In this document: piece after piece, positions 1 through 21,721 of the stretch
How the letters are laid out: each line of letters begins with the position of its first letter
Position numbering within the stretch: the stretch's first letter is position 1
Source: Geosiphon pyriformis
Taxonomy: Eukaryota > Glomeromycota > Glomeromycetes > Archaeosporales > Geosiphonaceae
DNA length: 64,000 nt
Assembly (NCBI GenBank): GCA_016748015.1
Contig: JAAOMT010000175.1
Coordinates: 575,498 to 639,497, forward strand
Reading direction: 5' to 3'
The notes under the pieces: model-generated
Told to the model about the DNA's origin: nothing
What the model saw: the letters and a program-made list of their open reading frames with translations, nothing else
The model's database searches: none
Position numbers and translations under genes: made by a program

Positions 1-28
1 CGACGAGAAACTTGCCTATGATTCCATC

Positions 29-1840: not shown

Positions 1841-2371
1841 AGAAAAGAATGTTCTGATGAAAATTAATTTAATGAATAATCTGATGTAATGATAATAATA
1901 ATAATAATAATAATAATAGAGAACTGATGAGTCTTGTCATTGACTTTTGTACTGTAAACTTCATCAATTAGTGAGTTGAAAGCTTGAATTATTTAAAGTG
2001 AAAAAAAAAAGATAACCTTTACAGTAACGTTCTTTTAAAGATCTAACAAGAATTTTTGTCGGAACGTGAAAGCAGTATGGTTTATAAAATTAAAATGAGT
2101 GCAACTAATAAGTTTCATTAAAAATATCAGGATTTAAACTTCATAACCTATTTCCCTCTTAATTATAAAGCTACCTCACTTTTAATTCGCCTAGCCAAGA
2201 TGAATTGGAATTTAAAGCGTAGATTGTAAAAGTGAGTAATTTATTTAATTTATACTAATACAGGTTGAACAATTATCTCGTATTTTCTAAAACACTCATG
2301 TATCAATTGAAAATTGAAGCAAGAAACATAATATTGGTACAGCTGAACGTGAATTAGTTCGATTTGACCCA
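1841..2371. other. Intergenic, convergent, with (AAT)n microsatellite
   Basis: This interval lies between the 3' ends of the MFS gene and the promethin-like gene. It holds a short (AAT)n tract at about 1891-1919 and nothing else recognisable. Confidence 0.6.
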
Positions 2372-3034
2372 TTATCTTCTGGTAAAAACATGATTTCCAT
2401 TTCTACGTCCATTACCTAAACGATATTGTTCGGCTGTAGCACTTGCGGTATCATTCGATGATAATCCGCTCAGTACTTCACCCCGTTCTCCGATAAATCC
2501 AACAGCCCATAACAAACCTCTAACCAATCTGAATATTCCATATCCCAAGACCGCAAATAGGAATGCAATGAAAGCAGCGAAAAGAGCAAATCCAATTACA
2601 GGTAATACGACACCACACCCGAGTAAAACAAAGAATCCTTCGACGAAAAAGATAAAACCCCCTGCAATTGCGAAACAAATCAATGTCGTAATGGCCAAAT
2701 AGCCGAGCATTAGTACCACAGGAACTGCGTTTAACGCCGCAGCACCATAAAGGAACCATGCCAATGGTGGGAAATAAGATGATAGAGCTTTGTAGATATC
2801 AATTACTGGGTAAGTCATATGGTATAAAGTGCCGATGAATCCTTTATATTGATCTCCACCATCGTAACCTGTCGTACTCTTGAAAGTTTCCGCTGCTTTC
2901 TCAGTAAATCTTGATGCTGTTTCGGATACTTTAGCTCTAGCTTCTCGGGCTTTCTCCATAGTGCTTTCGATTAAACCTTGACCATCTTCCCCAATAATGT
3001 ATGGAGTTCCTTTTGTAGCATCATCGTCACTCAT
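2372..3034 (-). CDS. Promethin/LDAF1-like lipid-droplet protein (candidate)
   Basis: Single-exon 220-aa protein. A soluble N-terminus (residues about 1-75) with an amphipathic, Ala/Lys/Glu-rich helix is followed by roughly 90 nearly uninterrupted hydrophobic residues (about 88-180) containing AVPV, FFVEGFFVLLG and LLWAVG, and then a short polar, basic tail ending NHVFTRR. The AVP...EG...LG pattern inside one long hydrophobic hairpin region resembles promethin (LDAF1/TMEM159; yeast Ldo proteins), which work with seipin in lipid-droplet formation at the ER. There is no intron in the frame. The assignment rests on pattern and hydropathy only; an unrelated four-helix membrane protein remains possible. 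Confidence 0.6.
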   Translation of the reverse strand: MSDDDATKGTPYIIGEDGQGLIESTMEKAREARAKVSETASRFTEKAAETFKSTTGYDGGDQYKGFIGTLYHMTYPVIDIYKALSSYFPPLAWFLYGAAALNAVPVVLMLGYLAITTLICFAIAGGFIFFVEGFFVLLGCGVVLPVIGFALFAAFIAFLFAVLGYGIFRLVRGLLWAVGFIGERGEVLSGLSSNDTASATAEQYRLGNGRRNGNHVFTRR

Positions 3035-4355
3035 GATCTCGAGAGGATTGGAAGATAGGAATCAGGGCGTCCTTTGTTAATTGATTTCCTTTAAATTTTT
3101 TTTAGAGTATATAGGAATAGAAGGAGAAAATGACTTGTTTCATTCGATATTGAAATATTGAATAATTTGTGCCGTATTTTATAAGTTTTTTTAATCATGA
3201 TAGCTATCAATGCTGATTTGATTTTACTAAGTTTCATGCGAAATGTATTTTGGAATGACGGAAATTACGAATTATGATAAAACCATCAAATTATGAGATG
3301 ATATAATGTCGCCCTCATGTTCAGGAACCCTAAAAATTATGATCATATAACAGTTTTGTTGCCCCAAGATTTCATGATTAGGAGTTAGCAAAATTAAGCG
3401 ACCTTAAATCTTGATTTCTTGGCAATTATAAATTGTAATTTTGTGATCTTTGACGAAACAATAGCAAGGAATATCAAGCTGATGATGCGACAGTTTTGAC
3501 CGAAGAGATAATTGAAAATCTTGTTTAAAAATTTAGAAATAATTTTTAAGTGAAGTTATAGGTTTATATTAGAATTTTAAGGTAAAATATTGTTTGATCA
3601 CCCATCATCAAATCATTATTTTTTACTTAATCACCTTTCAAATATTGTGTATATGATTGAGTTTTTTTAGATGAGTTTAAAAATTTTTAAAAATACATGA
3701 AACTGATTTCAAATTTAATTAATTGATTCAAATCAACTACAATGACTAAAAAAATGTTTTTTTTTTAACTTTCTTATTGTAGATAAAAAAAAAATCAAAA
3801 GAATTTTCTAGGAGATTCTCAACATAAAGATATCTAAATTGGTTGAAAAATTCTTTACTAGGAATTCTAATAACAATTCATGATTTTTTGAATGATATTT
3901 AACTTAAAATTAAGTTTGTGTAATTTTTTTGATCATTAATTATTAAATCAGTTGTTTATTATTTATATATTTGTAAAATAAAATTTATTCAACCGTGAAT
4001 GTGAGACTTTAAAAGTTTTATTATGAGTTGTTTTTAAGAAGGTTTTGTACATTTATTGAGTAAGTTTTAGACGAAAGTATTTTAAATTTCAAAGAATCGT
4101 ACAACAAAGAAAACGCATATTGCATATAAAATTAAAAATTCAACGTTATTTATCTTTCCAAAGAATCAAAATCTTCAATTTTAATGAATAAGGCTAAACT
4201 GGCGATAGCTGAAGATATTAATCCTCATCAAATTCAAAGAGAATCTAAAAAGATAGAAGGGAAAAGATATTAGCAACTGGTAGATTATTAAAAATTCGAT
4301 CGAATTAATTCCTTGATTTTTTCTTTTTACCTTCAGGGAGGTACAAAAATTCTTT

Positions 4356-4398
<43 letters not shown>

Positions 4399-4476
4399 GG
4401 ATTGAGAAAAATGGTTGTTAAATTCGTAAAAAATAAATAAATAAATAAATAAATAATCTAACATAGAAACAAAAAA
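3035..4476. other. Intergenic, AT-rich, with (AAT)n and (AAAT)n tracts
   Basis: No gene is recognisable. (AAT)n runs at about 4357-4398 and (AAAT)n at about 4428-4456, just downstream of the kinase stop codon. Confidence 0.6.
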
Positions 4477-5843
4477 TTACGAAAGAAAACCTGTTGATAA
4501 TCCACTCGTTTGAAGTGATAAAGGACGACTTGAATAGATTGCTTCGGAATGAATTGGTTCAGAAATGAATGATTCGTCGATTTCACAAATATCTTCTACA
4601 TGGTTTTCTGCTTCTAAAAACTGTGCAACTTCGGGTGTAGACTCATTATACTCAAGGGCATTCATTAATCTTATAAGCGTAAACTCTGCTTCCTTAGCGG
4701 TAGGTCGATTTGATGGGTTGGGGTCCCAACATTTTTTAATTAGTTCAGCATAGCAAGATGGAATTGTATTAGGAATCTGAGGTCTGACACAATTCAAAAT
4801 ATCCATTATGAGACTGATGTTATGAGGACGATTATGAAAGGGAGGCTTTAACGTTGCCAGTTCCCACAATAACATGCCAAAACTGTAAATATCACCGGCT
4901 GTCGAGTACTCTTCACCTCGAAAAACTTCTGATGGAATGTATGGAACCACTCCAAATATTTTTTTTTCAGCCAACTTTTTATTTGCAGGTTGACATAATC
5001 CAAGGTCACAAATTATTGCGCTGCCAGGATAATATTGTAAAATATTGCCCGAGTGAAGGTCACGATGAACCATACCCGATTCATGAATTTCAACTAATCC
5101 CTCGGCAATACTTTGGGCTATTTTTAATTTAACATGCCAATTAGTAGAATTTGTCGACAAAAATTTCCTCATATCTCCGTATTCGGCAAAGCAGGTTACG
5201 AAACCGAAATCAAGGGTTTTTGGATTTTGAGTGATGCCAATTACTTGAGAAATCTTATCAATGTATCTATTGGAACTCACTATAGATCTTTCAATATTTA
5301 TCTATTATAATGGGGAAAATTAATTAAAAATTGAGCGGTTTGAATAGTATTAAATTTTATCGATAACTGAGTAAAATAGAAATATTTGATTGCCTCTTTA
5401 AAGATCTCTTCACTCAATTCTGGATTATTCATGAATTTTATAGCCACATCTTGGGGTCCGCATCTCTTATGATCTAATTCACCATGGTGTTTTATACTAT
5501 AGGCATTAAGCTTTCCATCAATCCAGGTTGCTTTATGAATTGTACCAAATCCTCCCTTTGCAATAAAAGAAATATTCTTGAAGCGGTCATAAGGAATCCA
5601 TTCATAATAAAAAAATTTCGCAGAATCATTTTCATTCATGGGTGGTATATAGATTGGATTTTTGACGATATCGTCAACAGTTGCGTTTCCGCTCGAGAAA
5701 TCTTTATGAAGCTTTTCAAAAAATAAGAAACGACATGTTTCACACACATTTTTTCCATTATTTCGGGCACTTAATTTGCACTTTGGACATTCGTTGCAAT
5801 CATGATGATCGGGTCGAATTCTATTAATTTGAGGTTGTTCCAT
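4477..5843 (-). CDS. Protein kinase with Cys-rich N-terminus (two exons)
   Basis: Exons 5843-5368 and 5287-4477 (428 aa); the inferred 80-base intron (GTTATC...AAAG) preserves phase 2 and runs from YFYFTQ to SIVSSNRYI. The N-terminus (about 16-37) has CNECPKC and CETC pairs, a possible zinc site common in Glomeromycotina kinases. The kinase domain follows: glycine loop KGGFGTIHKA (96-104), VAIK lysine 136, HRDLHSGN (233-240, Asp235 as catalytic base), DLG in place of DFG (Asp253), PSE for APE, GDIYSFGMLLWEL and CWDPNPSNRP. All residues needed for catalysis are present; the HRD+2 Lys is His, as in several TKL/Tyr-kinase-like groups. Substrate unknown. The donor site is weak, so the exact junction is less certain than the frame. 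Confidence 0.85.
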
Positions 5844-7179
5844 TGGTTCAATTGAGAATATGAATAATTATGAATAATAGGCTAATTTTACGGGTCTTTG
5901 TCAATAAATTTGTTTTTGAACCGCTAATAATGTGCGTTTAAACTTGGGGATCTTTTATATATTGTTTTTATTCTGTATCCGCTAAACCAATTTTGTTTAA
6001 TAGACATTCTAGCTTCACATTTAGTTTTTTTCTTGAAGATTAATTTGAAACGGCTGAAAACTTTTTTCTGCATCAAAAATGTATATAGAATTTTCTATAG
6101 AAGTTCTTTGTTCCAAAGATAATCTAACCTAGTCAAATTAAAAACATCCTATTCTTAAGCTTTTGATTGTGATCAAAGATGGTGTAATAGCATTCAAAAC
6201 TGCAAGCGACTGAAATAAGGAAAGAAAAACGCCATAGTACATATTGTACAATAAGAAATCAAATCAAAATTTTTTCATTAAATGTAGTTTATTGTTTTTC
6301 TTGATGCAACATTGAATCGAGAAAAAACCTATATTTTCTCAAGTTTTTAAAATGTCGAGTAATGCGTGTTTTGAAATTCTTTTTAAGTGAAAGATATCTT
6401 GTGAATTTGAAATAAAAAAATATAAGCAATTAAAAATTTTGAAAAAGTTTTATCAATGAGATATCTATCAAAAAAAAAAACTTTGTGTCATGTGATGATT
6501 AAGAATAATCAAATAAATTATATCTCCAAAAAGTTTTTTCTATCCAATTTTATTAATAATGAAAAAATGCATATTATTTTTAACCTTTACTTTATTAATA
6601 AAGAAATTACAGATCCAAGTTATTAAGAAAAATAGATATTTTGAGGGATTAAAAATTCAAACTTGAATTGAACTCTTTACAAAAATGTTATGAACTATAT
6701 AAATCCAATATTTAACTCTGATTAAAAAATTACAATGGGATTTATGCATCCAAAACAATGTATATAATGAATTCTAGTCAAGTTTCAAATTTTTGTAATG
6801 GCATCCATCATCCATCCATCCATAGATATCATAATCTAAAAAAAAGTTTTAAATTCGAATGATAGGTTTGTTATTGACAAAATATTGAAACTATCATAAA
6901 TTGAAAAATAACAGATAAGAATTAATCACTTATCAGTTATCATTTATTTTGATTTATTTCGTATTAGGATCAAAATATAAATGATCATTGATTGATTAAT
7001 TTTTTTGAGGAAAAAAAAATATTCTCTCGTTTTTGTTTAAAGAGGTTAGCTAATAGACTAGCTAAAAAAAGTCATAGACTTTTGAACCACTTGACGAAAG
7101 AAAATTTTATAAACATAATATATATATATATATATAATCTTTATAGAAAATAGTGATAAAAAAATTATTTAGGACAAAA
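5844..7179. other. Divergent intergenic region
   Basis: This holds the upstream regions of the kinase (-) and of the first GDSL gene (+). It is AT-rich with a short (TCCA)n tract near 6808-6824 and an (AT)n tract at about 7119-7136, about 45 bases before the GDSL start codon. No other gene was seen. Confidence 0.6.
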
Positions 7180-8606
7180 ATGTATTCCCAATTAATCTTG
7201 ACTATTTTTATTTTCTTGGGATTTGTTCAAGTGGTTCGATGTCAAAATAAAGATAACAGCACTGATAAATTTGACAAGTTTGTAGTTTTTGGTGACTCTT
7301 GGTCTGGTAAGTCTGTTTTCATATCTATGAAAAGTTGATTCAAAAGTTCTTCGAAAAAGATTTATATAATCATATTTTTCATTCCTTCATAAATTTTTAT
7401 TTTAGATAATGGAAATACATTTCGTTTGACAGGTGGGAACTTTCCATCACCTACAGAATTTTATTATAGTGGTCGATATTCAGATGGCCCTTTATGGTCC
7501 GAATTCTTATCAAATGTGCTGGGTACCACATTTTTTGATTTTGCATATGCTGGGGCTTCGACAGAGTAGGTGATAATTAAAAATTTGTAGTCAATTTTGT
7601 AATGGTGAATTGATTCAGACAATGAAAAATTGAAAATTTGAAAATTTTGTAATTCTTCTAATTTTATTTTATAGCAATAATCAAATTCAAGGTAAATTTA
7701 GTCAAACATGTGTTGTTAAATATATAAATTTTTTTTGGTTCTAAATTCCAAGATTTAAATCTTAAAAGCTAAAACATATTTTATTTCTAATCAAAGGATA
7801 CGTACCAGGAGGTGGTCTAGAAAATAATGTTCCATTAATTTCTGTTCCAGGATTGATTCAACAAATTGAAAAGTTTAATGAATTTCAGGCGAGTAAAAAT
7901 GGGACATTGGATTTAAGTCGTACTTTGGTTTCGGTAAGTTATTTTTCGATAAAGTTTTTGAATATATAAATTGATAAAATCAAGAATAAAATTTTTAAAA
8001 TAAACCTACGAATTAATTTTTTATTAGACCTGGCTTAAGGGAAAACAATATTTTACATTTTCTTACACCAACAGTAGTACTGGTATCACCGTTGCCACCC
8101 CTCCTGAATTAGTTATTCAATCTTTTCTAGAAGCTTGGAAAAAGCTTTATTCATTCGGTATTCGATTTTTCTTGGTTTTAACCCTTCCTTCTATCACCTC
8201 TTTTCCATTCTATTCCAAACTTCCTTCTTCTCTCTCAAGTTTACTTCAAAATATAACCCAACAACATAACGCTCTTTTAAGTAGCGCGATCGTCAATTTT
8301 CAAACAACATATCAAGGGGTGAAATTTTTCTTTTTTGACTTTGAAAAGTTTAAAATGCAATACGTAGAAAATAGACGAGGTTTCAATAACTTGTTTGATG
8401 AAATCGGGGTTTGTGTTAGAGAGGTTACGAAATATGATACCGAAGAAGTTGAAGGGGAAATAAGGGAAAAACAAGGGGTTGAAAAATGTGGAGATGAAGG
8501 ACAAGTTTTTTGGTATGATTTATGGAATTTTGGACGAGATATTCATAAAGCTTTAGCTGAAAGAATTGGAGGGACGTTCAAAGGAGGCTGGAGGGAACAG
8601 TTATGA
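7180..8606 (+). CDS. SGNH/GDSL esterase-like secreted protein 1 (five exons)
   Basis: Exons: 7180-7306, 7406-7565, 7675-7691, 7797-7933, 8028-8606 (339 aa); all introns GT-AG with consistent phases. Signal peptide at residues 1-21 (cleavage near VVRC/Q). Block I FVVFGDSWSDNGNTF keeps the nucleophile Ser40; block II FAYAGAS is present. Block III reads TWLKGKQY, with Lys153 where GxND enzymes have the oxyanion Asn. In block V, YDLWNFGRDIH keeps Asp311, but Asn314 stands where DxxH has the catalytic His; the later His320 matches a conserved non-catalytic His. It is therefore a secreted SGNH fold that may be inactive or altered. It shares intron positions with the copy at 14982-16268 and converges on a class-3 lipase-like gene. 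The third exon is only 17 bases. Confidence 0.85.
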
Positions 8607-9214
8607 ACGAGATGTTTGTATTCAAAGGAGAGAGTGATAATTAATAATTTATTCGGGAAAATGAGATTTGAAATCTTGAAAATTTAAAAGAGTTGAAAGT
8701 TTAATAAGAATTTTAACCGTTTTCCCTATATCTATATATATATCTATATATGGTAACTAAAATATTTTCAAAGAGTTTTTTACCGTTACGAATTTAATAA
8801 AAGAATATAAAGTAAATTTTTTAAAATGTGTATTCTATAATCTAAAAAATCATTAAAAAATTCAAAAAGAAAAAAAAATGAGAATTTATATCTGAGGAAT
8901 ATATTCAATAGACAATAAAGTTTCATGGTATTTCAATTTTAAATAGAATACGTTTTCTTTATCGAACTTGGTGAAAGTGGGGATAAATTTAAATGACAAA
9001 TCAGAAAAAGAAAATTTATTATTAAAACAATTTTCAACTTTTTCGAAGATGAAACGTAAAATATTTTGAGAATTTGAAAAGTCAAAGATTAATACTTAAA
9101 AAAATTAGTAAAAAAAAAAAATTCTTTGTAAAAAAAAAAAAAAAAAAAATGAAATCCAATTATTAAATCTGCTGAAATTGATACAATATACATGTGACAT
9201 GTAAATTTAAAAAT
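8607..9214. other. Convergent intergenic spacer
   Basis: AT-rich spacer between the stops of GDSL copy 1 and class-3 lipase-like gene A. It contains poly(A) runs around 9111-9149 and no recognisable gene. Confidence 0.6.
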
Positions 9215-10819
9215 TCAGACGCTTGGAATCTTGTCCAATTCTTTACAATGACCCATTGTTGTCCCAAAATATGGACCAACGTGTGATTTGTTTTCATTAT
9301 CAATAGAATGATCACCGATTCCAGAATTACACTCCTAATAAATTAAATTATTTCAATTTTCAATTTCAATTTAAAGTAACACATCACATCAAAGATCTTA
9401 CGGTACCGGGTGTTCGCCACTAGTTAACCCTTTCCATGGTCTATAACCAGCACATTCCCAAAGTGCTAATCCATTAGTTGTTTCATCAACCGGTAGATCA
9501 CAATTACAATCCGGCTCAGCTAGCCAATATTCTAATTCATGATGGCGATATTCCTCGGGAGAATTATATAATCTTGGAATGAAATCATTAGTATGTGTCA
9601 CACGAAAGACGCTAATTAGTTGATTGGTTAAAGCGGCAAATGAAGGAGGTCCAATCCTTGGTTGTCCAAATGTGGTAACATGAATTTTTAGTCCCTGTGG
9701 TGGCCATTGGTTGACATTTCCACGAAGATCAATTTCAAGTGCTAAGGCTGTTAATACTGCGTATGCTATAAAATTTCAGAATTGCGCGATTCCGATTAAA
9801 AGTGGAATATTTTAATAATATATAGTAAAGAAATATTTACCCCCACCGATACCATGGCCGGTAAAAAATATTTTAGGATTTTTCCATTCACCCAGTACAC
9901 CTGTTTTATTTAAGAGGCCTTTCATCAATTCCAAAAACTCTGGAATAAAAATTCCAACGGTAATCTGCAATTCATCGTCAACAAACGTATCGGTCGGTTG
10001 AGGAAATGGACTATGATATGGTGCAAGTCTTTGCTGTCGTCTTTTCCATCTTTTAAAAGACATTAGTTTATTCTTGAAAAATCCAACAATACTTTTAGTA
10101 TCATGATCTATATATATATTCACTAAATCTGAATAAGAGAAAAAAAAGAAAAAGAAATTTGAATTTGAATTTGAATTTTTTGGAAGTTTTTTTTTAGTGT
10201 AATTTTCAAATTTAAAAGATTTAACTATTAAAAATAAACTTAAAAAACCTCGCCGATCTTTAGGGTCCTCTCCGAATCCTTTTGGAGGTCTAGTTTTAAA
10301 AGGACAATAACCAAAATTAGCAAAAACTGCTAAATGGCTCAAAAACTTGATTGTCCTTTCATCGGTTATTCGATGTCGTTTATAATAGGAAGGAATTTTT
10401 TCACGTTTTTCGTTTTTATTTTTCGATTGAAGATTTGGTGGTGAGTAATAATGATTGAATTTATCAAGATTTTTAGGGAATGAAAACGAAGGTTCTTGAT
10501 TAAACTTTTCAAGCTCCAATTTCACGGAACCATCCAAAAGTGATTCAAGTGGAATCAAATGATCAGGAATACGGTAAAGTGTCTTATTATTTAAATTTTT
10601 TTGATATTTGGAGGAGTAAGAGGAGGAGGAGGAGGAGGAGGAGGAGGAGGAGGAGGAGGAGGAGTAGTTGTAGTAGTAGTTGTAAGAGGAGGTTAATATG
10701 ATTGAAGTGATTTTAGATAAATAAATGATTGAAAGGAACAGAAAAATGATAAAGAAATATTTCAAATTATTCAGTCGTTTGAATGAGTTTACAATAAACC
10801 ATTTATTTATTTCGTACAT
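9215..10819 (-). CDS. Class-3 lipase-like protein A, nucleophile Ser replaced by Gly
   Basis: Exons: 10819-10249, 10128-9841, 9765-9407, 9334-9215 (445 aa); the first intron has a weak donor but the phase fits. A membrane segment at about 21-43 suggests a type II anchor or uncleaved signal, followed by a run of about 15 Ser (52-67) encoded by a (TCC)n microsatellite. The C-terminal half is a Rhizomucor/Thermomyces-type lipase: FFTGHGIGGAYAVLTAL is the nucleophile elbow, with Gly283 where the Ser of GHSxGG belongs. Downstream are TFGQPRIG, THTNDFIP (Asp347), YRHHELEYW, a CNC pair and SHVGPYFGTTMGHC (His424, probable triad His). Asp and His are therefore kept and the nucleophile is lost. The frame is otherwise intact, which argues for a selected pseudoenzyme rather than decay. 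Confidence 0.8.
10620..10680. repeat. Coding (TCC)n/(GGA)n microsatellite
   Basis: Trinucleotide tract inside exon 1 of lipase-like gene A. Read on the minus strand it encodes the poly-Ser linker that separates the membrane segment from the rest of the protein. Length is likely to vary between alleles. Confidence 0.85.
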
Positions 10820-11786
10820 TTTTTTTTCTAGAAAAAGAGGAAAAATATTTCCTTAAAACATATTTTCTCATTTAATGGTTTTTTTATTTTTTTTTGGATT
10901 TAGTACCAAAATATTTTTTTACTTAAAAAAAAGATCTTCTTCTCCTACTCGTCCATTTATGATCCTCCTCCATTTCCCGATATGTAAATTCTAGTAAAAA
11001 TTTTTTTTTTTTTTTTTTCGCAAAAATGTTCGGAGACAATACAAATGTTAATTATTTTTATGACTAAATTAGGGGGAAAATCTATCAAATTATTAATATG
11101 TTTAAAAATATATATATATAAATGTGTGTAAAAGTAATTTTCTAAAATTGGAATTGAGAAAAATAATTTGTCAATTTTTTGAGTGTAAATTTGTTTTTTG
11201 CTAAATATGCGTTAAAATTTTTACTTTTAATTATAATTAATTATAATGGTAATTTTTTGAATAAATAAATAAATAAATAAAATAATAAAAATTATATATA
11301 GAGAAAAATTAAAATGAAAAATAAAAATTTTATACTACAAGTCAGAAACAGTATCCCAATTAATAAATTGTATGAATTTAATTACTTTTTCTAAAAATTC
11401 ATCTCTTTTAGAAATTATGTATGGTTAAAATTTTAGACGACGATAATAAACTTTATGAAACGTGATAAACTCAAGAGTATAAGAAAATTTTTTTTTAACC
11501 TTTAAATGATAAAATCATCTTTTATTTGAAAATACGAATATTTCATTATTTAAATTAATGTCTTATCAAGTAGTCAATAATCATTTAATGACTGTAAAAC
11601 ATATTCATTAATATTTTATTTCTTTAAAAAGGTAAAATACCAGAAAAAAATGATAATTAAATTATTTGCAAAAAAAAATCCAAAAAAGTATTTTTAACAT
11701 TTTTCTTTTTGAAATTTCGCAATACGCTAATCATTTTTAATATATAATGATTAAATGGGTCGTCATTATTTCAAGCTAATCCGTAT
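10820..11786. other. Intergenic between lipase-like genes A and B
   Basis: AT-rich interval holding the upstream region of gene A and the 3' side of gene B. A poly(T) run lies at about 11000-11019 and short (AAAT)n near 11263-11280. No gene seen. Confidence 0.6.
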
Positions 11787-13570
11787 TTATATTGGACACA
11801 CACCCATTACGTATCCAAAATATGGACCTTTATGAGTCTCGATCGGATCTATTGATCGTTTCAAACCGTAGTGGTTTATGCAATGCTGATATACAAAAAA
11901 AGTTGAAGATTAAAGTTTGGTTATTAATAATATTTTTTTGGTGGGATTTTAACTCTTAATTTCTGCAACTCAAGTAGAAAATTATTAAAAATTTACCGGA
12001 TTCTCAAGCTCATATCCGTGAGGTAATACATCGGTTCTTTTTCCAAAGCATTCGTACACAATCCATGAATTTGAATTTTTTTCCACACACTCACAATCCT
12101 TTTCATTTGATATCCAAATTTCTCTTTGTGAATGCAAGTAACCAACATCTGTATGCGGGTATCGCGGGATATCGTCATCCTGATATGTGACACGATAAAC
12201 TAAAGGAAAATTCGGAGTCCAGATTCGATTAATGTATTCCACTTGTGGTGCTGCCGCAAACCGGGGTTGACCGAACGTTACGATTTGAACATTTGAAGAT
12301 GGATTTAAGCGTTTCCACATTAGCCCTGTTAGAACTGCGTACACTGTAGGGTATCAAAAAGAGGGGAAAAATCTGAATACGAAAAAATTTATCAAAAAAA
12401 CCACAATCAGAAACTTTTTTTCAATCACAGCAACATACCACCACCAGAGCCCCATCCAGTAATTCTTAATTTGTATTGTGTAACCCACATGTTATCCACA
12501 AGGTCCTCAATCACTTTGATTAAATTTTTTTTAGCCTTTCTGAAATTTATTTGAAATACTTCATCAATGCCATCTGAATCTGGGCCGTAATATTTTTTAT
12601 TTCCGATTTCCTCGTCGGTGTTGTTGATGATATTATTCTTACGATTTTCCCATTGTTTAATTGATAATTCTGTCCCACGAACGTATATTATTATTTCTTT
12701 AGGGTTTGAGTTCGGTTTCGTTATGCCCTCCGCTGCAGGATGAATGAATGGATGAATGGATGGATGGATGAATGGATGGATGGATGAATGGATGAATGGA
12801 TGAATGGATGAATGGATGAATGGATGAATGGATGAATGGATGAATGGAAATGAAGAAAATAAGAGGGAGGCAATAAAGTTCAATCCTTCGTGTTGATATT
12901 TATTGATTAATTTTGAAAATTAAAAATTATACTGAAAAGCGAGAACAAATATGAAATAGGTAACCGGTAGTATACAAGTTTTTCTAACCTAATAAACAGC
13001 ACTAAAATTATCGTTGACTGACTTATCTCTTTCTAAAAAAACAAAACACTCACCATAAATTCCTTCCCACATTCTACCACCCATCCCTCCACCGCTAAGC
13101 CAATTCATACAAGAACTTTTTTGAGCATACTGGGCCATCTCTTTAATAAAATCCAAAAATTTCGGATCGTTTATCCTGTTTTTTTCAAAATTATTGTCAT
13201 TAGTACTATAATGTCCATGATCAAATACGTTACTACTGATTACAATTTGTTTTTGACTTTTCAAATTTATTTCATTTGAAGAGATTTGTGGGATATTTGA
13301 ACGAGGTTTATGAGTAAAGATCGAATTGAAATGATTTGATTGGTGGGTTGTGTTTAAAGTGAATGGTGGTGGTGGAAAGTTAATTGGTGAAGTGATTGAT
13401 TTCAAACCAAAAGTGAGTTCGGAATCTTGATTTGATTTATCATTAATATCATTATTATTTAGTTGAAAATTTTCGTTATAATTGTAATTTTTTACAAAAG
13501 GTTTCGGTTTAGCCTCAACGAGAAATAATAAATAGTAAAAAATAAATAAAATTCCTAGAAATATCTTCAT
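11787..13570 (-). CDS. Class-3 lipase-like protein B, GWGSGG elbow
   Basis: Exons: 13570-13054, 12732-12439, 12343-11997, 11885-11787 (418 aa). I chose Met 13570 because it opens a clean signal peptide (MKIFLGILFIFYYLLFLVEA), although the frame also has an ATG at 13633. The N-terminal third is low-complexity and Asn-rich. The lipase core has IIIYVRGTELSIKQWENRK (RGTE matches the oxyanion region), then RITGWGSGGVYAVLTGL. The nucleophile position is Gly267, His266 is also replaced by Trp, and a Ser sits one residue later (268). TFGQPRF, QDDDIPRYP (Asp327), YLHSQREIW and THKGPYFGYVMGVC (His404) follow. Exon order and phases match copies A, C and D. The first intron contains the long TGAATGGA repeat. 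Predicted secreted pseudo-lipase; whether the displaced Ser could act is unknown. Confidence 0.8.
12737..12848. repeat. (TGAATGGA)n minisatellite inside an intron
   Basis: About 110 bases of alternating TGAA/TGGA units lie in the first intron of lipase-like gene B and abut the acceptor AG at 12733-12734. On the transcribed strand the repeat reads CATTCATC, so it forms the pyrimidine-rich tract of the acceptor. An apparent open frame across it (FIHSSIHP repeats) is an artefact of the repeat. Confidence 0.85.
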
Positions 13571-14981
13571 TTCTCTTCTATTATCAAATTTCCAAAAATT
13601 TTGTGAAAATATTTTTATTTCTTTTTGAATCATTTACGTCAACGAATTTTTCAAAAAAGATTGGTAAGAATCGAAATCAGATGTCAATCAAAAAGTGTAT
13701 TAAATATGTGTGTGTGTACATTTACTTGTTTATATTTTTTTTTCATTCCTTTATAATAATATGGAAATCAGAGGTCATCTAACGATCACTAGAGCTTTTT
13801 AATAATTTTTGAGATGAAATTTTTTTCAAAATATTTAGCATTTAATCCAAATGTTACTTATTTCTTCTTATTTTAGATGGGTATCAATATTGGGGGAACC
13901 CTTTTTTTTTTGTTAAATATCTTTAAAGTTTGAAACATTTTCAAAGTAGAGTAGCAGTAACATGATTTGAGAATAATTAAAAAAATTTAAATTCGTGAAT
14001 ATTAAAATTCAGTTACGATAGGAGCCGAGATAACTCGTTTTAATATTTTTTTGAAAGATTTTTCAAAAAATAAATAAATCACATGTTATATATATATAGA
14101 AAAGATCCTGCTTTAAATAGAAATTTTCAATTTGTAATTCTTTTAAATAATAGAACATAATACATTAAAATTATCACTAATCAAACTCTTTAATTTTAGA
14201 TCAGATCTCAAGATAACTAGACTTTTAAGCCTTTATTTGGGAATTAATTTCTTTTTTTCAAAGCGAAAAAATTATTGTTATTCTAAAAAGAAGAAGCTTT
14301 ATCTTTAATAATTGTTAACTTTATTCAGGATAGTCCCAATCTATTTTCTAATTATTCAACTATATATTTTTATTGGTACTCATTATTAGGAAGTTCTTTT
14401 AGTTATTATTTTACCACCATCATTACCAACACCAACACCAACACCAACACCAACACCAACACCAACACCAACACCAACCACCACCACCACTACCACATTC
14501 ATCCAAATAATAAACTTGTCAATGAATTAACTTTGAAATGGCTAAGCTTTGTAACATCTTCAAATATGGATGGTTTACGAACATTTCCTTTCTCGGCTAA
14601 AGACTATTTTATCCGTAGTACTGATTGTCTCAACAAACGGAAGATGTTTGTCATATTTGAACGAATTTATTCAGGGCGAATGCTACCAGAAATTCCAAAA
14701 ACTACTCATCATACTGTTTGTAATACTGATCGAAGATTCGAAATTGAGGGGCATCAGTTTTGATAGATTAAATTGAGAATAGGCTAATAGTAACTGATAA
14801 CAATGATGAATAATGATGGCTAAAAAAAAAATAACTGCCACGCTAATTTAAAAAAAAAGTTTCAGTTGAAAAAAGTTTTTTAAAACCCAATTTTATTCTT
14901 ACATTCCCAAAGATTGAAACATCCTATTTTTTTTATATTTTTTTTTTTTTTTGATAATAAAAAAATTTAAAAGTTAACAAT
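13571..14981. other. Divergent intergenic region with (ACCAAC)n tract
   Basis: Shared upstream region of lipase-like gene B (-) and GDSL copy 2 (+). An (ACCAAC)n minisatellite runs at about 14422-14494. A 76-codon frame at 14533-14763 resembles nothing I recognise. A poly(T) stretch lies just upstream of the GDSL start. Confidence 0.55.
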
Positions 14982-16268
14982 ATGTTTTGTAAATTTTGGG
15001 TCTGCTTCGTTTTCATATGTTTACCTTGTACTATCACCTGCCTGACCATTAACGTAAAACGTGATTTAAACCCAAAAACAAAATATAATAAATTGATTGT
15101 ATTTGGAGACATTTATTCCGGTAGATTTGAAATGGAAAGAATGAAAAATCTTTTATCGTCTTATATTATTTCTCAAAAATTAATCTTTATTAGATAATGG
15201 AAATACATTTAAATTATCTGGTGGAAAATACCCGAATCCACCCTCACGTTACTATAAAGGCCGATACACTAATGGTCTTTTATGGCCAGACTACATACAG
15301 AAAATTTTGGATATTGAGTTATTAAATTTCTCATATGGTGGTGCCACGGCAGAGTATGTATCTTTTCAATATTTAAAGTTTTCAATTGGATTTTTGAATT
15401 CAGTGAAAATTAAAAAAATTTTCAAATATTTTTATTCAAAGCAATGATTATTTTCAAGGTAAATTGATTGATTGATTTTTTTTTTTAAAAAAAAAAACTT
15501 TTGGTCTTTGAAAAATTTTATTTATTGCCATTTTCTATTTTAAAAAATTTCATCTAAAGGAAAAGCAGGACATTATTTAATACCCGACTTTCCGGTTCCT
15601 GGATTCATACAACAAGTAAAAACTTTTAATGAAACTTATTCAGAAATTACTGATTTCAGCAAATCTTTAGCAGTGGTAAGTGAAAAATATTTAGTTTTCA
15701 TATCATTTGAACGAATCAAAAAATTTTTTTTGTTCAGAAATTTTTTATAATCTTTTTAAATAAATTGAAATTCCGAATATTTAACTAGACTTTTTTAACG
15801 GGAGCTGATTACGCCTACAATTTCAACAACCCTGATCCTAAATCTATCATCTCGGTCTTCCCGGAAGCTTGGAAAATTCTCTATAATAGAGGGATCACTT
15901 CTTTTCTCGTACCTTTACTACCCCGAATCTGGGAAGCACCATTCTTTGGTTCTTTAGACCCTATCGCTCGAGGAAATTTGATCGAGAAAGCTAATACACA
16001 TAACCAACTTCTTCAGGATGCTATTGAAAATTTCAAAAAGAGCAATCAAGATGTTGACATGAAGCTTTTTGATACGCCAAATTTTCTCGATAAAAATAAT
16101 TTTCCTGCAATTTTAAATTTCACCAATCCTTGTATAAATTATGAAATTGTACCACCAGTTGTATGTCAGGAGCCTACAGATTATTTCTATTATGATTTAT
16201 ACTGTTTATCTAACAAAGTTCACTCAGATTTGGGCTGGGAAATTGCAGGTAGAATTGGGGAGTTATAA
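14982..16268 (+). CDS. SGNH/GDSL esterase-like secreted protein 2, catalytic Ser lost
   Basis: Exons: 14982-15120, 15194-15353, 15442-15458, 15560-15675, 15789-16268 (303 aa); intron phases equal those of the copy at 7180-8606, and exons 2 and 3 have the same lengths (160 and 17 bases). Signal peptide at residues 1-20 (MFCKFWVCFVFICLPCTITC). Block I reads LIVFGDIYSDNGNTF: Ile44 replaces the nucleophile Ser. Block II FSYGGAT keeps its Gly. Block III is TFLTGADY, with Ala150 for Asn. Block V is YDLYCLSNKVH, with Asp280 kept and Cys283 where the DxxH His belongs. Three of the four SGNH hallmark residues are therefore missing while the frame and splicing are intact. Predicted secreted pseudo-esterase or binding protein. 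Confidence 0.82.
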
Positions 16269-16277
16269 TTATAGTAA

Positions 16278-16310
<33 letters not shown>

Positions 16311-17170
16311 CAGTTATAGTAGTTATATTAGTTATAGTAGTTATAGTAGTTATAGTAGTTAGAGTAGTTATAGTAGTTAGAGTAGTTGTAGTAGTAGTTA
16401 TAGTAGTAGTAGTAGTAGTAGAATCTTGTAAAGAAAATCTTTTTTTAAAAAGATTTTCTTGAACTGTTTATTTTTATTTTTTTTAGATTTGATTTGTATT
16501 TTAAATTTTTGTTTTTTAGAAGCTGTTTACTTGAAAACTCTATCATTTCATGAACATCATTATTTTTTAAGAAAGAAAACAAAATAAATTATATATTAAA
16601 AACAATCCAAATATTTTGATGTAAAGCGTATTGGGATGTAGTGGTAGTTATAGTTACGAAAGCAATCAAATATTTTTTACCGATGCAACATGCTCTTCTC
16701 TCTTTTTAGTTACATTAATTATCTTTATGAAACGATTACAAAATCAAAAACAAAAATTTATAACAAACATTCCATCGAATTTTATCCTAATATATCCTAA
16801 TATATCCTAATATATCCTAATATATATATAAATTTAGTTTATTTTAGCTTTAATAGTAAATTTAAGAATGGATATTTTTGCAAAAAAATATCCATTTTTA
16901 TTATATTTCTTGAAATCGTATAAATGAGTAATAAATTTCAGTTATTCATTTATTCATTTGGTTGTTTATTTATTTATATATAATGAGTAAGTGAAAAAAA
17001 AATTTCAAAAATTTCAAACTAAATATAAATTTAAAGGTTTGACAAAAAAATCATTTTTCAAATTATTATATATATATTTTCTAAATTGAAGGAGTTTCTT
17101 TTTTTTTGAAAGTTAATTTTTTTTTTCTTGTTCGATTTTGCAAAAATTTTTTCTAGATATATATTAAAAT
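16269..17170. other. Convergent spacer with (AGT)n tract
   Basis: An (AGT)n microsatellite with interruptions begins immediately after the GDSL copy 2 stop codon (about 16271-16420). A tandem CCTAATATAT tract is near 16790-16823. No gene is recognisable. Confidence 0.65.
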
Positions 17171-18821
17171 TTATTGATTCGAACTTTTTAACATAAAATT
17201 TCGATTGGGAGGATCAGAATGTTGACAAACTCCCATTTTGTATTGAAAATATGGACCATCGTGAGAAAAAATCCCGGATAAGTATCTTGTTTCATGAAAT
17301 TGAGCATTGCAATCCTATTTTGGAATTTAAGGATGTAGATTTTAAAAAGAAAATAAAAAGTATAATTTTAAACCGAAATTTTAATAATTCTTTACCGGAT
17401 GTTCATCACCAGTCTCCACATTACATTCCCATACAATTTCAGGGGGCTTACTACAATCACATGGGCTCTCTGGAATCCAGTACTCTGTTCCTGAATGGGC
17501 AAAACGTACACCTGACACCTGATTTGGATACGATGGGATAACATCATCACTATTCGTGACTCGGTTGACCGTGAATTTTTGATTAATATACCGAGCCAAT
17601 TTAATATCTCCCAATCTTGGGGAGCCAAATGTTGTTACAATGACTCGTCGTGTTGAGAATATCTTTTGAAAAGATAATGCCGCTAAAAGTGCCCAAACTG
17701 AATCAATTAGATTCAGTCAGTAAAATACGTACGGTGAGGAAAAGAGATTAGACTAAAGGTAGAAATTTTAATACTGGGTTTATTCTAAAAAAAACTTGTG
17801 GGAAATACAAGATCTTAATATCAATAAAACTCACCACCACCTTCACCATGTCCAGTAAAGTGGAAAGGATAGGCTCGATAAGTTGAATTTCTTATGAACC
17901 GGTCAAAAACTTTAATCAATTGATCCTCTGCACTTGTATACTCTTGTCCTGTTGTAATCAAATTTTTCCAAACATCAAAACCATTCGGGTCATTTTTCTC
18001 AAAATTGTTCGTTGTAAATTTGGTATAAAACCCTTTTTCGATTAATGGAGGTACATTCATTTCCGGTACTGGATATTGTTGGAATGTATTTTTCTGTTTA
18101 AGCAAATTGAGCTGGGTTAAGTCTTGACCTTTAAAAAAAAAGATAATTTTTCCTTCGATTTCCGTTGAAGGTGATTGTACGCGTGAATCAGCTAATTCAA
18201 GAATTTAGGAGCAAAAAGTTTTTCAATGCTTGAAATCTTTATTTTCTCAATATTTTTTTAAAATACAAGATGTGATTAAGTTCAAATTTTCTTACCATAA
18301 ATTCCATCTCCAATTTTTCCATTCTCATTATTTAGACAGTATGCTTCTTGTGAATAATAAGCCATTTCTAATAGTAATCTTAGTATTCTTGACGAGCTAA
18401 TAGGTTTTTTCGTCATACCAGATGTATTATCTAATTGGTTTCTTTTTACTATTCGCGTCGTCCTTTTAAAATTTAAAGAAGGATCTTTTAATTTATTTTT
18501 CCTTCGCATTTCTCGATAGAAACTATTTTTGAAATTTGATAAATGTGTTTTTGTATCATTTTTAGCGAAAGAGTAATTTTTAGGAAAATTACGTCCAATT
18601 CTAAAATTTTCATCAAGATTTGATGATGATGATGATGATGATGTTGTTGTTGTTATTGTTGTTGATTTTGATGTTGATATTGATGTAGAAAGTATCTTTG
18701 GAAATGTGTCCATTGACCATTTCTCGGCAGTGTATATAAAAATCTTGAAGAGTGTATAAAAAGATAAAACAAATATTATCCAAAAAACCTTTGAAGAGAG
18801 GAAATTTAGTTTTTGTTGCAT
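17171..18821 (-). CDS. Class-3 lipase-like protein C, nucleophile Ser replaced by Gly
   Basis: Exons: 18821-18296, 18191-17835, 17697-17396, 17314-17171 (442 aa); canonical splice sites, phases 1-1-0 as in copies B and D. A hydrophobic segment at about 13-33 (VFWIIFVLSFYTLFKIFIYTA) suggests a signal anchor, followed by a Ser/Thr-rich stretch encoded by a (GAT)n/(GTT)n tract. The region before the core ends in GDGIYG as in B and D. The elbow is FHFTGHGEGGVWALLAAL, with Gly291 at the nucleophile site. TFGSPRLGD, NSDDVIPSYP (Asp346), RFAHSGTEYWIPE, a CDC pair and SHDGPYFQYKMGVC (His413) follow. The oxyanion-side strand is FFFKGQDL and lacks the Trp seen in A, B and D. Open frame throughout; predicted catalytically dead. 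Confidence 0.82.
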
Positions 18822-19337
18822 TGGTTCAAAAATTTATTAAAATTTATTTCATTGCTTTTAAGGAATTAAATCAAGGTTGAAAAATTTTCTAATAAAACCA
18901 CAGGCACAACCATAGAGTTAATAAAGTTTTTCGATAAGCAAATTGTTTTTATGAAGTCATTGTAACAAAAAATCAATATTAGCAATCATAAAATCAAAAC
19001 AAATTTATTTTCTTTAGAATATGGGTTTTTTTTTTACTTTTGAGGAAATGAAAATGAATCATCTAGATTGTGAAGGAAGGTTACCCGGCAATTAAGTTTT
19101 GAAAGGAATTTTAGTTGAATAGGAATAATTTTTAACATATAATTCATTTTTGAATAAAAAATAAATCCGTTTTTCCTACTCAAAAACTTTCCCAGATTGC
19201 TGATTTTCATGATAAATATTTTCAATTTGTTTCTTAAACTTTTATCATCGGGGTTTTAACCCCCGAAAATAACTAAAATAACTCCATTTTGTTGACCGAG
19301 ATCTCGCGAAATGTTATTAATTTCATTGTCATCATTG

Positions 19338-19377
<40 letters not shown>

Positions 19378-20115
19378 TTACCGATGATCAATAGTATGAT
19401 AAAATTGAAACTGTTTGTGAGGAGCCTCCTACATCTTTTGAATACGGTAATTTCTTTACTAGATTATTTTATTTTCTTCGATTTAGATATAAGGGAGCAA
19501 GGAATAGACTAATCGAGTTGAGTTCGAGTTAAAAACTTGATGATTTTTAACAAATAAAAATCAAGAATAAAGTTGACATAATAAATTTTATCATTTTTAT
19601 AAAATAAATTCAGGGTTAGAAATATTTCATACAAAAAGATAATCAATTGATTTGAAGTAGAATCAATTAAAATATAAACCTATTGTTATTCAATATTTTT
19701 AATTTAGACTATCGAATGACAAAATTTAATTGATGTAAAATTCAAAATCTTTTTTTATCATAAAGTTTATTTTCATTTATAATAGATTCAGTAAGTTTTT
19801 ACAAGTTTTATTTCGATCTCAAAATTCGAAATATTTCCTTTCAAGATTCATTTGAATAATTCATTTCTTGAATATTTGACCTGATGAGTTATTAAGTATA
19901 CATAAATCAGTTAAAACATTTTTAATCAAATAAATAAATAAGTTAACAAAGAACCTTTTTCAGGTTTTAAACATTAATGGATTTTTTTGGAATACAAAAA
20001 TTTTCAACATAATCTCTTTTCCAATGATTTTTTTTTCATTTAATTCATTGTAACAAATGAATGTTTTTGGCTTTTTCTTCTCAATAAATTTTAAAATGAA
20101 GTCCAGTTATAGTAT
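18822..20115. other. Intergenic with (CAT)n microsatellite
   Basis: Upstream region of lipase-like gene C and downstream of gene D. A (CAT)n tract lies at about 19329-19377. A 63-codon frame near 19034-19225 looks random. No gene assigned. Confidence 0.55.
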
Positions 20116-20326
20116 TCAATTAAGTTCAGGGGAAATAGGCCATGTTTTACTTGATGATCCTTCATAGGGACATCTGCCCATGATGTAACCAAAATAGGGA
20201 CCATAATGTGAAAACCTTCCTTGTAAGTTTCTCGTCTCATGAAACTGTGCATTGCATTCCTATTATAATTAATATTTCAAGAAAAAAATCAAAAAAATTT
20301 TTGAGCTCAATAGTTTAAACTCTTTT

Positions 20327-20367
<41 letters not shown>

Positions 20368-21721
20368 AACTAATATTATTTTCTTGTGTTCAATTCTACT
20401 CACTGGATTTTCTTGGCCAGACTCGGAATAACATTCAAATGCCACTACCCGAAATTTACATTCACACTCATCTAAGGGAATCCAATATTCTTCACGATGA
20501 TGTCGATATTTCTCTCCACGATACTCTTTCGGGAATGAAGGAATAGTATCGTCAGCATGGGTAACTCTGTATGAAATCAACCATTCATCAACAAATCGAG
20601 CAAACTGGTAATTGCCAATACGTGGCTGACCAAAAGTTATCACTTCCACATTTATATGAGGGTATTTCCTTTTGAAAGAAATAGCAGTGAGGAGGGCCCA
20701 AACTTTTTAAAATATTATAAAAGAAAATTTTGTGAGGTTTTTTAGAATCTGTTTTACATGTGAAACCTTTATGAAAAAAATTTTATACTCACTACCGCCT
20801 TCATCATGACCAGTAAAACAGTAAATCCATCCTTTATATTCCGAATTTTTTACAAACACACTCAATTTGTCTAAAAGAATTTCCTCTGGGCTCTTCAAAT
20901 TCTGTTCCACCATTTCTAGTTTAGTCGTAAATTTTTTGTACCACCAACGATCAACGAACGCCCCCTCAGCTAGTAAATAAGGAATGAGAACATCTTGACG
21001 TTTCTTCCAGCTATCAAACTGAATCTCGCGGCCTTTAAAATACGTACTAATCTGGTGAGTTTGAGATGAATCTGGGAATGTATATGCTGAAAAAAAGATT
21101 AAAAATTTGAAGTTCAGATAAAAGAATAAATGAATTGAATCGAATTTGATTGATTTAACAGAAAAGAAAGATACCATAAATTCCATCAACAATTCTGCCT
21201 AATTTATCATGTAAACAATATGCTTCTTGAGCGTATAAAGCCATATAAAATAATTTATTGAGTAAAAGTTTACGTTTTACAGGTCGTTTGTAAAATTGAT
21301 TGCGTCTTTTGAGCCGCCTCAATTTCGATGGGATAATTTGTGAATGATGATTTTGATGTTTTGCTAGTTTTCGATTTTCAGAATTGTGGCTATATAATGT
21401 GAAATTTCTTGTTTGAAAATAGGTTCGACTATCGGTCAAATTTAAATGGTATTTACAATGTGTAGGGTATATATCTTTTTCTGGTTTAAACAAATTTGTT
21501 TGATGAAAAATTGAAGGCTTCTCTACTAAATATTTTGTAGAAATAGAGTTTTCCTCTACTAATGAAACATCATCCCAATTTATGTTACCCCTCATCTTTT
21601 GTGACCCTAAAATACATAATAAACCCAGAAAACAGAATAATAGGCTCCAAAAAGTAGCTTGAAATTTAGAAAAAATATATATAATTGATATTGAGTAAGT
21701 TGAAATTTTAGCCATAAGCAT
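20116..21721 (-). CDS. Class-3 lipase-like protein D, nucleophile Ser replaced by Asp
   Basis: Exons: 21721-21175, 21086-20793, 20702-20404, 20259-20116 (427 aa). A hydrophobic segment at about 24-41 (FWSLLFCFLGLLCILGSQ) suggests a signal anchor; a basic, charged stem follows. The core has STYFKGREIQFDSWKKR, then FTGHDEGGIWALLTAI, where Asp277 replaces the nucleophile Ser. TFGQPRIGNYQFARF, HADDTIPSFP (Asp332), YRHHREEYWIP, a CEC pair and SHYGPYFGYIMGRC (His398) follow. Splice phases equal those of copies B and C. Intron 3 carries a (CAT)n tract (about 20328-20367). The Ser-to-Asp change differs from the Gly found in the other copies, so loss of the Ser either happened more than once or changed further after a single loss. 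Confidence 0.82.

Follow-up and report, generated by a model that had tools for sequence, protein, structure and literature searches.

The window examined here is a stretch of 64,000 nucleotides of the Geosiphon pyriformis genome, namely the final 64 kb of contig C393 in an assembly of 406 contigs (124.7 Mb) that was searched as a whole. Between positions 7180 and 21721, it carries a cluster of six genes from two hydrolase families, with two SGNH genes on the forward strand and four class-3 lipase genes on the reverse strand (Table 1). All six can be modelled as spliced genes without any internal stop. SGNH_A and SGNH_B have four introns in common, in position and in phase, and the four lipase genes are interrupted at the same three positions. 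The 20 introns of the cluster are all of the GT-AG type, with the donor GTTTTT in one and GTACCG in one. The four lipases score 52–65 bits against the Pfam family PF01764 (curated cut-off 22), and SGNH_A and SGNH_B 51 and 43 bits, respectively, against PF00657 (curated cut-off 23.6). The other window lipases are 25–27% identical to LIP_C, and the two SGNH proteins 36% identical to each other; to judge from the sequences, multi-exon frames that stay intact at such divergence would not be due to chance. The spliced models and the Pfam scores thus bear out the sequence-only reading of this stretch, which had announced six genes with intact frames and conserved splicing. Hydropathy gives an N-terminal hydrophobic segment for each of the six, anchor-like in LIP_C, LIP_E, and LIP_F, and signal-peptide-like in LIP_D.

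The same reading had claimed that each gene lacks at least one key catalytic residue, and this proved correct. Where GHS is expected at the nucleophile elbow of the lipases, LIP_C reads GHGIGG, LIP_D GWGSGG, LIP_E GHGEGG, and LIP_F GHDEGG; none of the four has Ser in a GxSxG elbow. In the profile alignment to solved structures, these Gly, Gly, Gly, and Asp residues coincide with the nucleophilic Ser of feruloyl esterase A (FaeA, 1usw). All four have kept the other two triad residues, Asp and His (the His in exon 4, H-x-GPYFG), and the oxyanion Ser/Thr that follows FRG is missing in three, LIP_D retaining VRGT. Another His, in the motif H-xxx-EYW, was considered as the catalytic one and ruled out, as the full-length alignment to the Rhizomucor lipase places the catalytic His in exon 4. 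For the SGNH proteins, whose catalytic Ser, Asn, and His stand in blocks I, III, and V, SGNH_A keeps its Ser (GDSWSDNGN), with GND changed to GKQ and the His to Asn (YDLWN), and SGNH_B has GDI for GDS, GAD for GND, and Cys for the His (YDLYC). SGNH_A, therefore, lacks two of the three residues of an active SGNH enzyme, and SGNH_B all three. Since the altered codons lie inside exons, alternative exon joins, by which GHSxGG or GDS might have been recovered, do not restore them. With nucleophiles or other catalytic residues missing, ordinary acyl-enzyme chemistry appears unlikely for these proteins, as had been supposed. The LIP_F elbow (positions 20793–20811) carries Asp, and that of another family member, L003, carries Cys (GHCVGG). 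Cysteine and aspartate are nucleophiles in other hydrolases, and these two proteins may be active.

Table 1. Genes of the cluster and two nucleophile-elbow exon ends, in window coordinates (exons in order of transcription).
Feature	Position	Strand	Protein	Exons	Pfam match	Remark
SGNH_A	7180..8606	+	339 aa	5: 7180-7306, 7406-7565, 7675-7691, 7797-7933, 8028-8606	PF00657, E 2e-13	
LIP_C	9215..10819	-	445 aa	4: 10819-10249, 10128-9841, 9765-9407, 9334-9215	PF01764, E 2e-15	
LIP_C elbow exon end	9841..9859	-				GHGIGG-G|GT; anchor of the genome-wide pattern
LIP_D	11787..13570	-	418 aa	4: 13570-13054, 12732-12439, 12343-11997, 11885-11787	PF01764, E 1e-13	
SGNH_B	14982..16268	+	303 aa	5: 14982-15120, 15194-15353, 15442-15458, 15560-15675, 15789-16268	PF00657, E 6e-11	
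LIP_E	17171..18821	-	442 aa	4: 18821-18296, 18191-17835, 17697-17396, 17314-17171	PF01764, E 7e-18	
LIP_E elbow exon end	17835..17853	-				GHGEGG-G|GT
LIP_F	20116..21721	-	427 aa	4: 21721-21175, 21086-20793, 20702-20404, 20259-20116	PF01764, E 1e-16	

The window lipases belong to a family spread over the whole genome, of which they are a local sample, and the cluster itself is not unusual. Lipase_3 exons give at least 163 matches in the organism's own genome, with 150 of 748 candidates scored. The elbow exon end, searched as GHxxGG-G|GT, occurs at 402 places, as compared with 7 for a reversed control pattern. The nucleophile position of these places is occupied by Gly in 287 (control 1), by Ser in 42 (37 + 5; control 0), and by other residues in 73, so that 360 of the 402 (about 90%) are non-Ser. 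Among 100 matches from the pattern listing, the other residues are Ala, Phe, Tyr, Asp, Ile, Cys, Asn, and Glu. The pattern misses members without His at its second position, such as LIP_D; a less biased sample of 18 loci, fetched via the exon downstream of the elbow, was non-Ser in 14 cases (read by eye). Hence, the organism apparently maintains many proteins of lipase shape for a role other than ordinary fat-cutting. In viral and prokaryote collections, the pattern gave 16 and 53 matches, respectively, with no confirmed relative among them. The open-licence literature, searched also for inactive lipases in general, yielded no description of such a family of lipases without a nucleophile from these fungi, most subscription-journal papers lying outside that search. 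L006 and L020 form a different Lipase_3 pair, with a contiguous GHSLGAA and long C-terminal parts, and by eye are perhaps a conserved housekeeping lipase.

For a closer view of the active site, 66 loci were assembled from 30 Pfam matches, 32 chosen pattern matches, and the four window genes, and 53 of them gave models (10 with Ser at the elbow, 40 with Gly, and one each with Ala, Asp, and Cys); those left without one are L006, L010, L014, L020, L021, L022, L026, L075, L078, L080, L081, L089, and L092. L063–L088 were chosen as Gly-pattern matches in likely paralogue sets and L089–L094 as Ser-pattern matches, so that the proportions among models are not frequencies, which rest on the genome pattern counts and on the 18-locus sample. 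A model had to contain the elbow glycines and an F/Y-G-x-P motif, as well as the GP motif in cases with a modelled exon 4, and an acidic residue close to where exon 3 ends was preferred; the columns concerned are, therefore, conserved partly by construction. The triad Asp and the triad His were not used in building the models. The Asp is present in all 43 non-Ser models, and the His in 32 of the 34 in which it could be determined (9 of the 43 were not readable there), with Asn in L011 and L023. Each of the two is found in nine of the ten Ser models. The R and T of the R-x-T-xxx-D loop are invariant in the 43 non-Ser models, as are the H and E of the H-xxx-E-x-W loop, whose His is distinct from that of the triad.

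A comparison with columns that are invariant in true lipases gives a scale for this retention. Over the 66 columns invariant in five Rhizomucor-like true lipases, median retention is 0.60 in 26 non-Ser models (33 of the 53 models entered this test), with the Asp kept in 26/26, the His in 24/26, the Ser in 0/26, and the oxyanion Thr in 1/26. As the Asp-His pair stays while the parts that form and stabilise the acyl-enzyme are gone, this is not a general erosion of the active site; judged from the aligned residues, the loss of Ser is selective within it. After the EYW motif, 37 of the 43 non-Ser models have a CxC pair; the five true lipases all lack it, and four of the five other Ser models carry it. 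An N-terminal hydrophobic segment is predicted for 25 of the 37 non-Ser genes with an exon-1 model.

In a tree of 53 rows, Ser and Gly members are interspersed. A single origin of the Ser loss was considered and rejected, because the tree needs several changes (6 for Ser, 8 for Gly) and Ser recurs in members with the CxC pair. Five Ser-type members of the genome, L004, L005, L007, L008, and L009, form a clade with support 100/97 and match the Rhizomucor lipase 4tgl over almost its entire chain (E 2e-58). They look fully catalytic, L009 having Gln in place of the H-xxx-EYW His, and are probably the organism's true secreted lipases of this type. Adjoining this clade with weak support (96/29) are L018, L025, and L028 on contig C235, with the elbows GDGLGG, GVGLGG, and GEGIGG and no CxC pair, a pair that is also missing in L015, L070, and L071. 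L018, L025, and L028 likely represent a separate loss of Ser, in which the conserved His before the nucleophile changed as well. L030, L091, L093, and L094 combine an elbow Ser with the CxC signature; their Ser may have been regained, retained, or be non-functional. LIP_E is sister to LIP_F (98/80), LIP_D groups with L074 (99/91), and LIP_C is weakly placed elsewhere, so that the window is not one simple tandem array.

Selection was assessed on 37 recent Gly-type paralogue pairs, using the NG86 ratio of nonsynonymous to synonymous substitution rates (dN/dS) by exon, and pooling one pair from each of eight local families. Not all pairs cover the four exons, and exon 1 stands for its last 110 codons. 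Pooled over the eight chosen pairs, dN/dS comes to 0.59 (nonsynonymous sites have fewer changes per site, p = 6e-11), and each of the eight lies below 1 (0.48–0.68). Recent Gly-type paralogues are under purifying selection; the claim that the genes are maintained, rather than randomly decaying, thus holds for relatives that share the feature. No Ser-type close pair occurs among the 37, and the ratio, therefore, comes without a Ser control. Exon 2, which ends at the elbow and by homology presumably carries the lid region, was considered as a target of diversifying selection. The first five pairs gave 0.85–1.5 for it, but the contrast between exons 2 and 3 over the eight pairs has p = 0.19, and the idea was abandoned. 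Its dN/dS is 1.4–1.5 in two of the eight families and 0.18 in another, and the contrast is reversed in L074/L075.

The SGNH genes are fewer, about 17 in the genome, ten of them on contig C399. Among the 15 outside the window, those on C118 and C366 and those on C399 at 290, 370, and 528 kb are complete at the three blocks; only the Asn is changed on C136 and on C399 at 285 and 310 kb. Ser, Asn, and His are lost together on C399 at 245 and 258 kb, as in SGNH_B, while the copy at 280 kb has lost Ser and His (its Asn was not read). The C264 copy has Gly for Ser and a last block, WFTST, without Asp or His, its Asn being kept (GQND). The copies on C399 at 225 and 374 kb and on C370 were only partly read. 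Active-looking copies, hence, stand beside Ser/Asn/His-less ones on C399 between 225 and 528 kb (many of L038–L062). The three catalytic residues tend to be lost jointly in this family, whereas the lipases lose Ser and nearly always keep Asp and His. SGNH_A and SGNH_B are probably separate, dead paralogues in a small family with active-looking members, and need not share the job of the lipase-like proteins. Using 301 listed lipase places (an incomplete list), 6.7% of the genome lies within 25 kb of one; three of the six SGNH sites outside the window do so, the C399 cluster counting as one site (p = 0.005, post hoc). This proximity is suggestive, but does not show a shared job, since two of the three SGNH copies concerned, those on C118 and C366, look catalytically complete. 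On C264, a GHGSGG lipase and the GDGWS SGNH gene lie about 8 kb apart.

Other features of the window were read by eye. Upstream of the cluster (positions 1–5867) are an MFS-type transporter, a small multi-pass membrane protein, and a protein kinase. Downstream (22333–63137), the sequence is AT-rich up to the contig end and holds Tc1/mariner-type transposase pieces (22.3 and 26.4–27.5 kb), Sel1 repeats, repeated HMG-box fragments (around 37.0 and 40.7 kb), and BTB/TLDc genes (55.8–60.6 kb). Together with the kinase-like pieces, the HMG-box, Sel1, and BTB/TLDc sequences of the window would suit a glomeromycete, as the sequence-only reading had assumed. Within the cluster, intron 1 of LIP_D (12733–13053) contains a short ATGG-rich tandem repeat and is 321 nt long, compared with 72–144 nt for the remaining introns of the cluster.

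The window lipase profile matches FaeA best (E 1e-20). With FaeA and the fungal class-3 lipases (Rhizomucor miehei, 4tgl; Rhizopus, 1lgy; Thermomyces, 1dt3), the family shares the fold family, an N-terminal AYC helix, and the positions of the elbow, the Asp loop, and the His loop, but it differs by the change of the elbow Ser to Gly, the loss of the oxyanion Thr, a CxC pair that is usually added, and an often anchor-like N terminus. The plant immune proteins EDS1, PAD4, and SAG101 use a class-3 lipase fold without needing catalysis. The comparison with proteins of the EDS1 type, already drawn from the sequence alone, gains from remote matches of the window profile to EDS1 and PAD4 (E 5e-6 to 4e-5), no closer relationship being shown. 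These plant proteins are intracellular, have an added EP domain, and are encoded by few genes per plant, whereas the four window lipases have Lipase_3 alone above the Pfam cut-off, with no EP domain. Neuroligins and insect yolk proteins are alpha/beta hydrolase folds without an active Ser and have binding roles, but they belong to other hydrolase families, in animals. The closest solved relatives of SGNH_A and SGNH_B are the SGNH lysophospholipase A 8a24 (E 8e-20) and the SGNH/GDSL hydrolase 8h09 (E 8e-17), from which both window copies differ by the lack of Asn and His, and one by the lack of Ser. The best evolutionary parallel is the scabies mite, whose serine and cysteine protease families comprise, according to PMC4930577, a few active members and many triad-mutated paralogues (SMIPP-S and SMIPP-C), some of which inhibit host complement. 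Both cases involve two unrelated hydrolase families, with many triad-mutated members beside a few active ones, in a host-associated organism; the mite families are proteases with tens of genes, whereas here lipases occupy about 400 places and keep their Asp-His pair.

The explanation that we favour, with a probability of roughly 0.5, is that secreted or anchored, non-acylating lipase folds have been kept as a large and divergent set of proteins for ligand binding or recognition. Most members would no longer make an acyl-enzyme, the elbow Ser being mostly Gly and the oxyanion Thr nearly always replaced. They retain the fold and the two loops with their Asp-His pair, to which the majority of modelled members add the CxC pair. 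Such proteins would be extracellular binders, with a lipid, an acyl group, or a wall-derived ligand in the former acyl pocket and the Asp-His pair as a polar anchor, and the many divergent copies would cover many ligands or partners. A bolder form, which we consider unlikely, sees in these several hundred proteins a hypervariable repertoire for recognition outside the cell, based on a lipase fold without its nucleophile and diversified by local duplication; its retained Asp-His pocket would bind lipids or host- or self-derived ligands, and the set would serve a plant root symbiont as receptors or effectors.

Several observations count against the binding-set explanation. The strict retention of Asp and His could reflect residual chemistry or a mere structural need, and a dN/dS near 0.6 is mild and could come from relaxed constraint. 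The ratio covers relatives only, as the window genes have no close paralogue among the listed matches, and the exon 2 contrast failed to indicate diversification. The 402 pattern matches are places, not verified genes, and the gene models are rule-based, 13 of the 66 loci yielding none. Some copies look damaged: L075 has a frame break in exon 3 (by eye), L063–L066 have in common an in-frame stop immediately before the modelled exon 2 (doubtful by eye), and L084 has one stop in its exon-4 match to L085. A Ser occupies the oxyanion place in 2 of 38 non-Ser models in a looser alignment, 12 of the 37 non-Ser exon-1 models have no strong N-terminal hydrophobic segment, and some of the four CxC members in which Ser recurs may be active.

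Among the alternatives, the retention may be structural only, the proteins being non-catalytic partner-binding modules or surface-acting effectors of the EDS1/SAG101 or SMIPP kind, in which the pocket and the Asp-His pair are passive. The size and divergence of the repertoire, the remote kinship with EDS1 and PAD4, the high exon 2 ratios in two of the eight families, and the inactive mite hydrolase paralogues that act on the host, as described in PMC4930577, are in favour of this explanation. Nevertheless, Asp and His are among the better-kept of the 66 columns, more than a passive scaffold seems to need, and the exon 2 acceleration is not general, so that it is considered a tentative option, on the unlikely side. 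The strictness of Asp and His, together with the invariant residues of their two loops, would also suit proteins with a Gly elbow that are still enzymes, in which the pair directly activates water or a substrate hydroxyl without an acyl-enzyme. This is distinctly unlikely: with the oxyanion Thr in one of 26 models, a stabilised tetrahedral intermediate is improbable, the 36 best-conserved columns include no Ser (a check that did not extend to their conserved Thr and Cys as nucleophiles), and the role of Asp and His may be a structural one.

A lipase family that has duplicated to excess might also be decaying slowly, with Ser as the first residue to go in new copies that last for some time. Such slow decay would account for the damaged copies (L075 and perhaps L063–L066) and for the mild dN/dS. 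It is quite improbable, as all eight chosen pairs lie below 1, Asp and His do not decay, Gly-type members at 25–27% identity to LIP_C retain their frames and intron positions, and a single replacement, Gly, takes 287 of the 360 non-Ser places. Finally, the SGNH and lipase genes could work as one unit, with a common job for both pseudo-hydrolase families, an explanation that is compatible with the others. The proximity at three of six sites and the pair on C264 speak for such a unit, but the test was post hoc on an incomplete lipase list, the C399 SGNH cluster has no listed lipase, and active-looking copies are among the SGNH genes near lipases. Expanded gene families may, moreover, simply gather in the same genome compartment. 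A joint unit is, thus, very improbable, and the shared job proposed for the two families is weakly supported, given the different ways in which they lose residues. Of the wider proposal that the kept folds serve a non-catalytic role, the maintenance of the genes and the unlikelihood of ordinary chemistry survive; the cluster as a special pairing of two dead families does not.

According to PMC11426481, the genes for fatty-acid synthesis are lost in arbuscular mycorrhizal fungi, which import lipids that the plant exports. If the present organism is such a fungus, as its gene content suggests by eye, about 400 lipase-like places, mostly not ordinary lipases, would change the way in which its lipase count is read. 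Domain annotation would name all of them lipases, while only a small clade looks able to cut lipids. The loss of Ser with retention of the Asp-His pair points to binding or to unusual chemistry, rather than to plain decay, and this split is testable.

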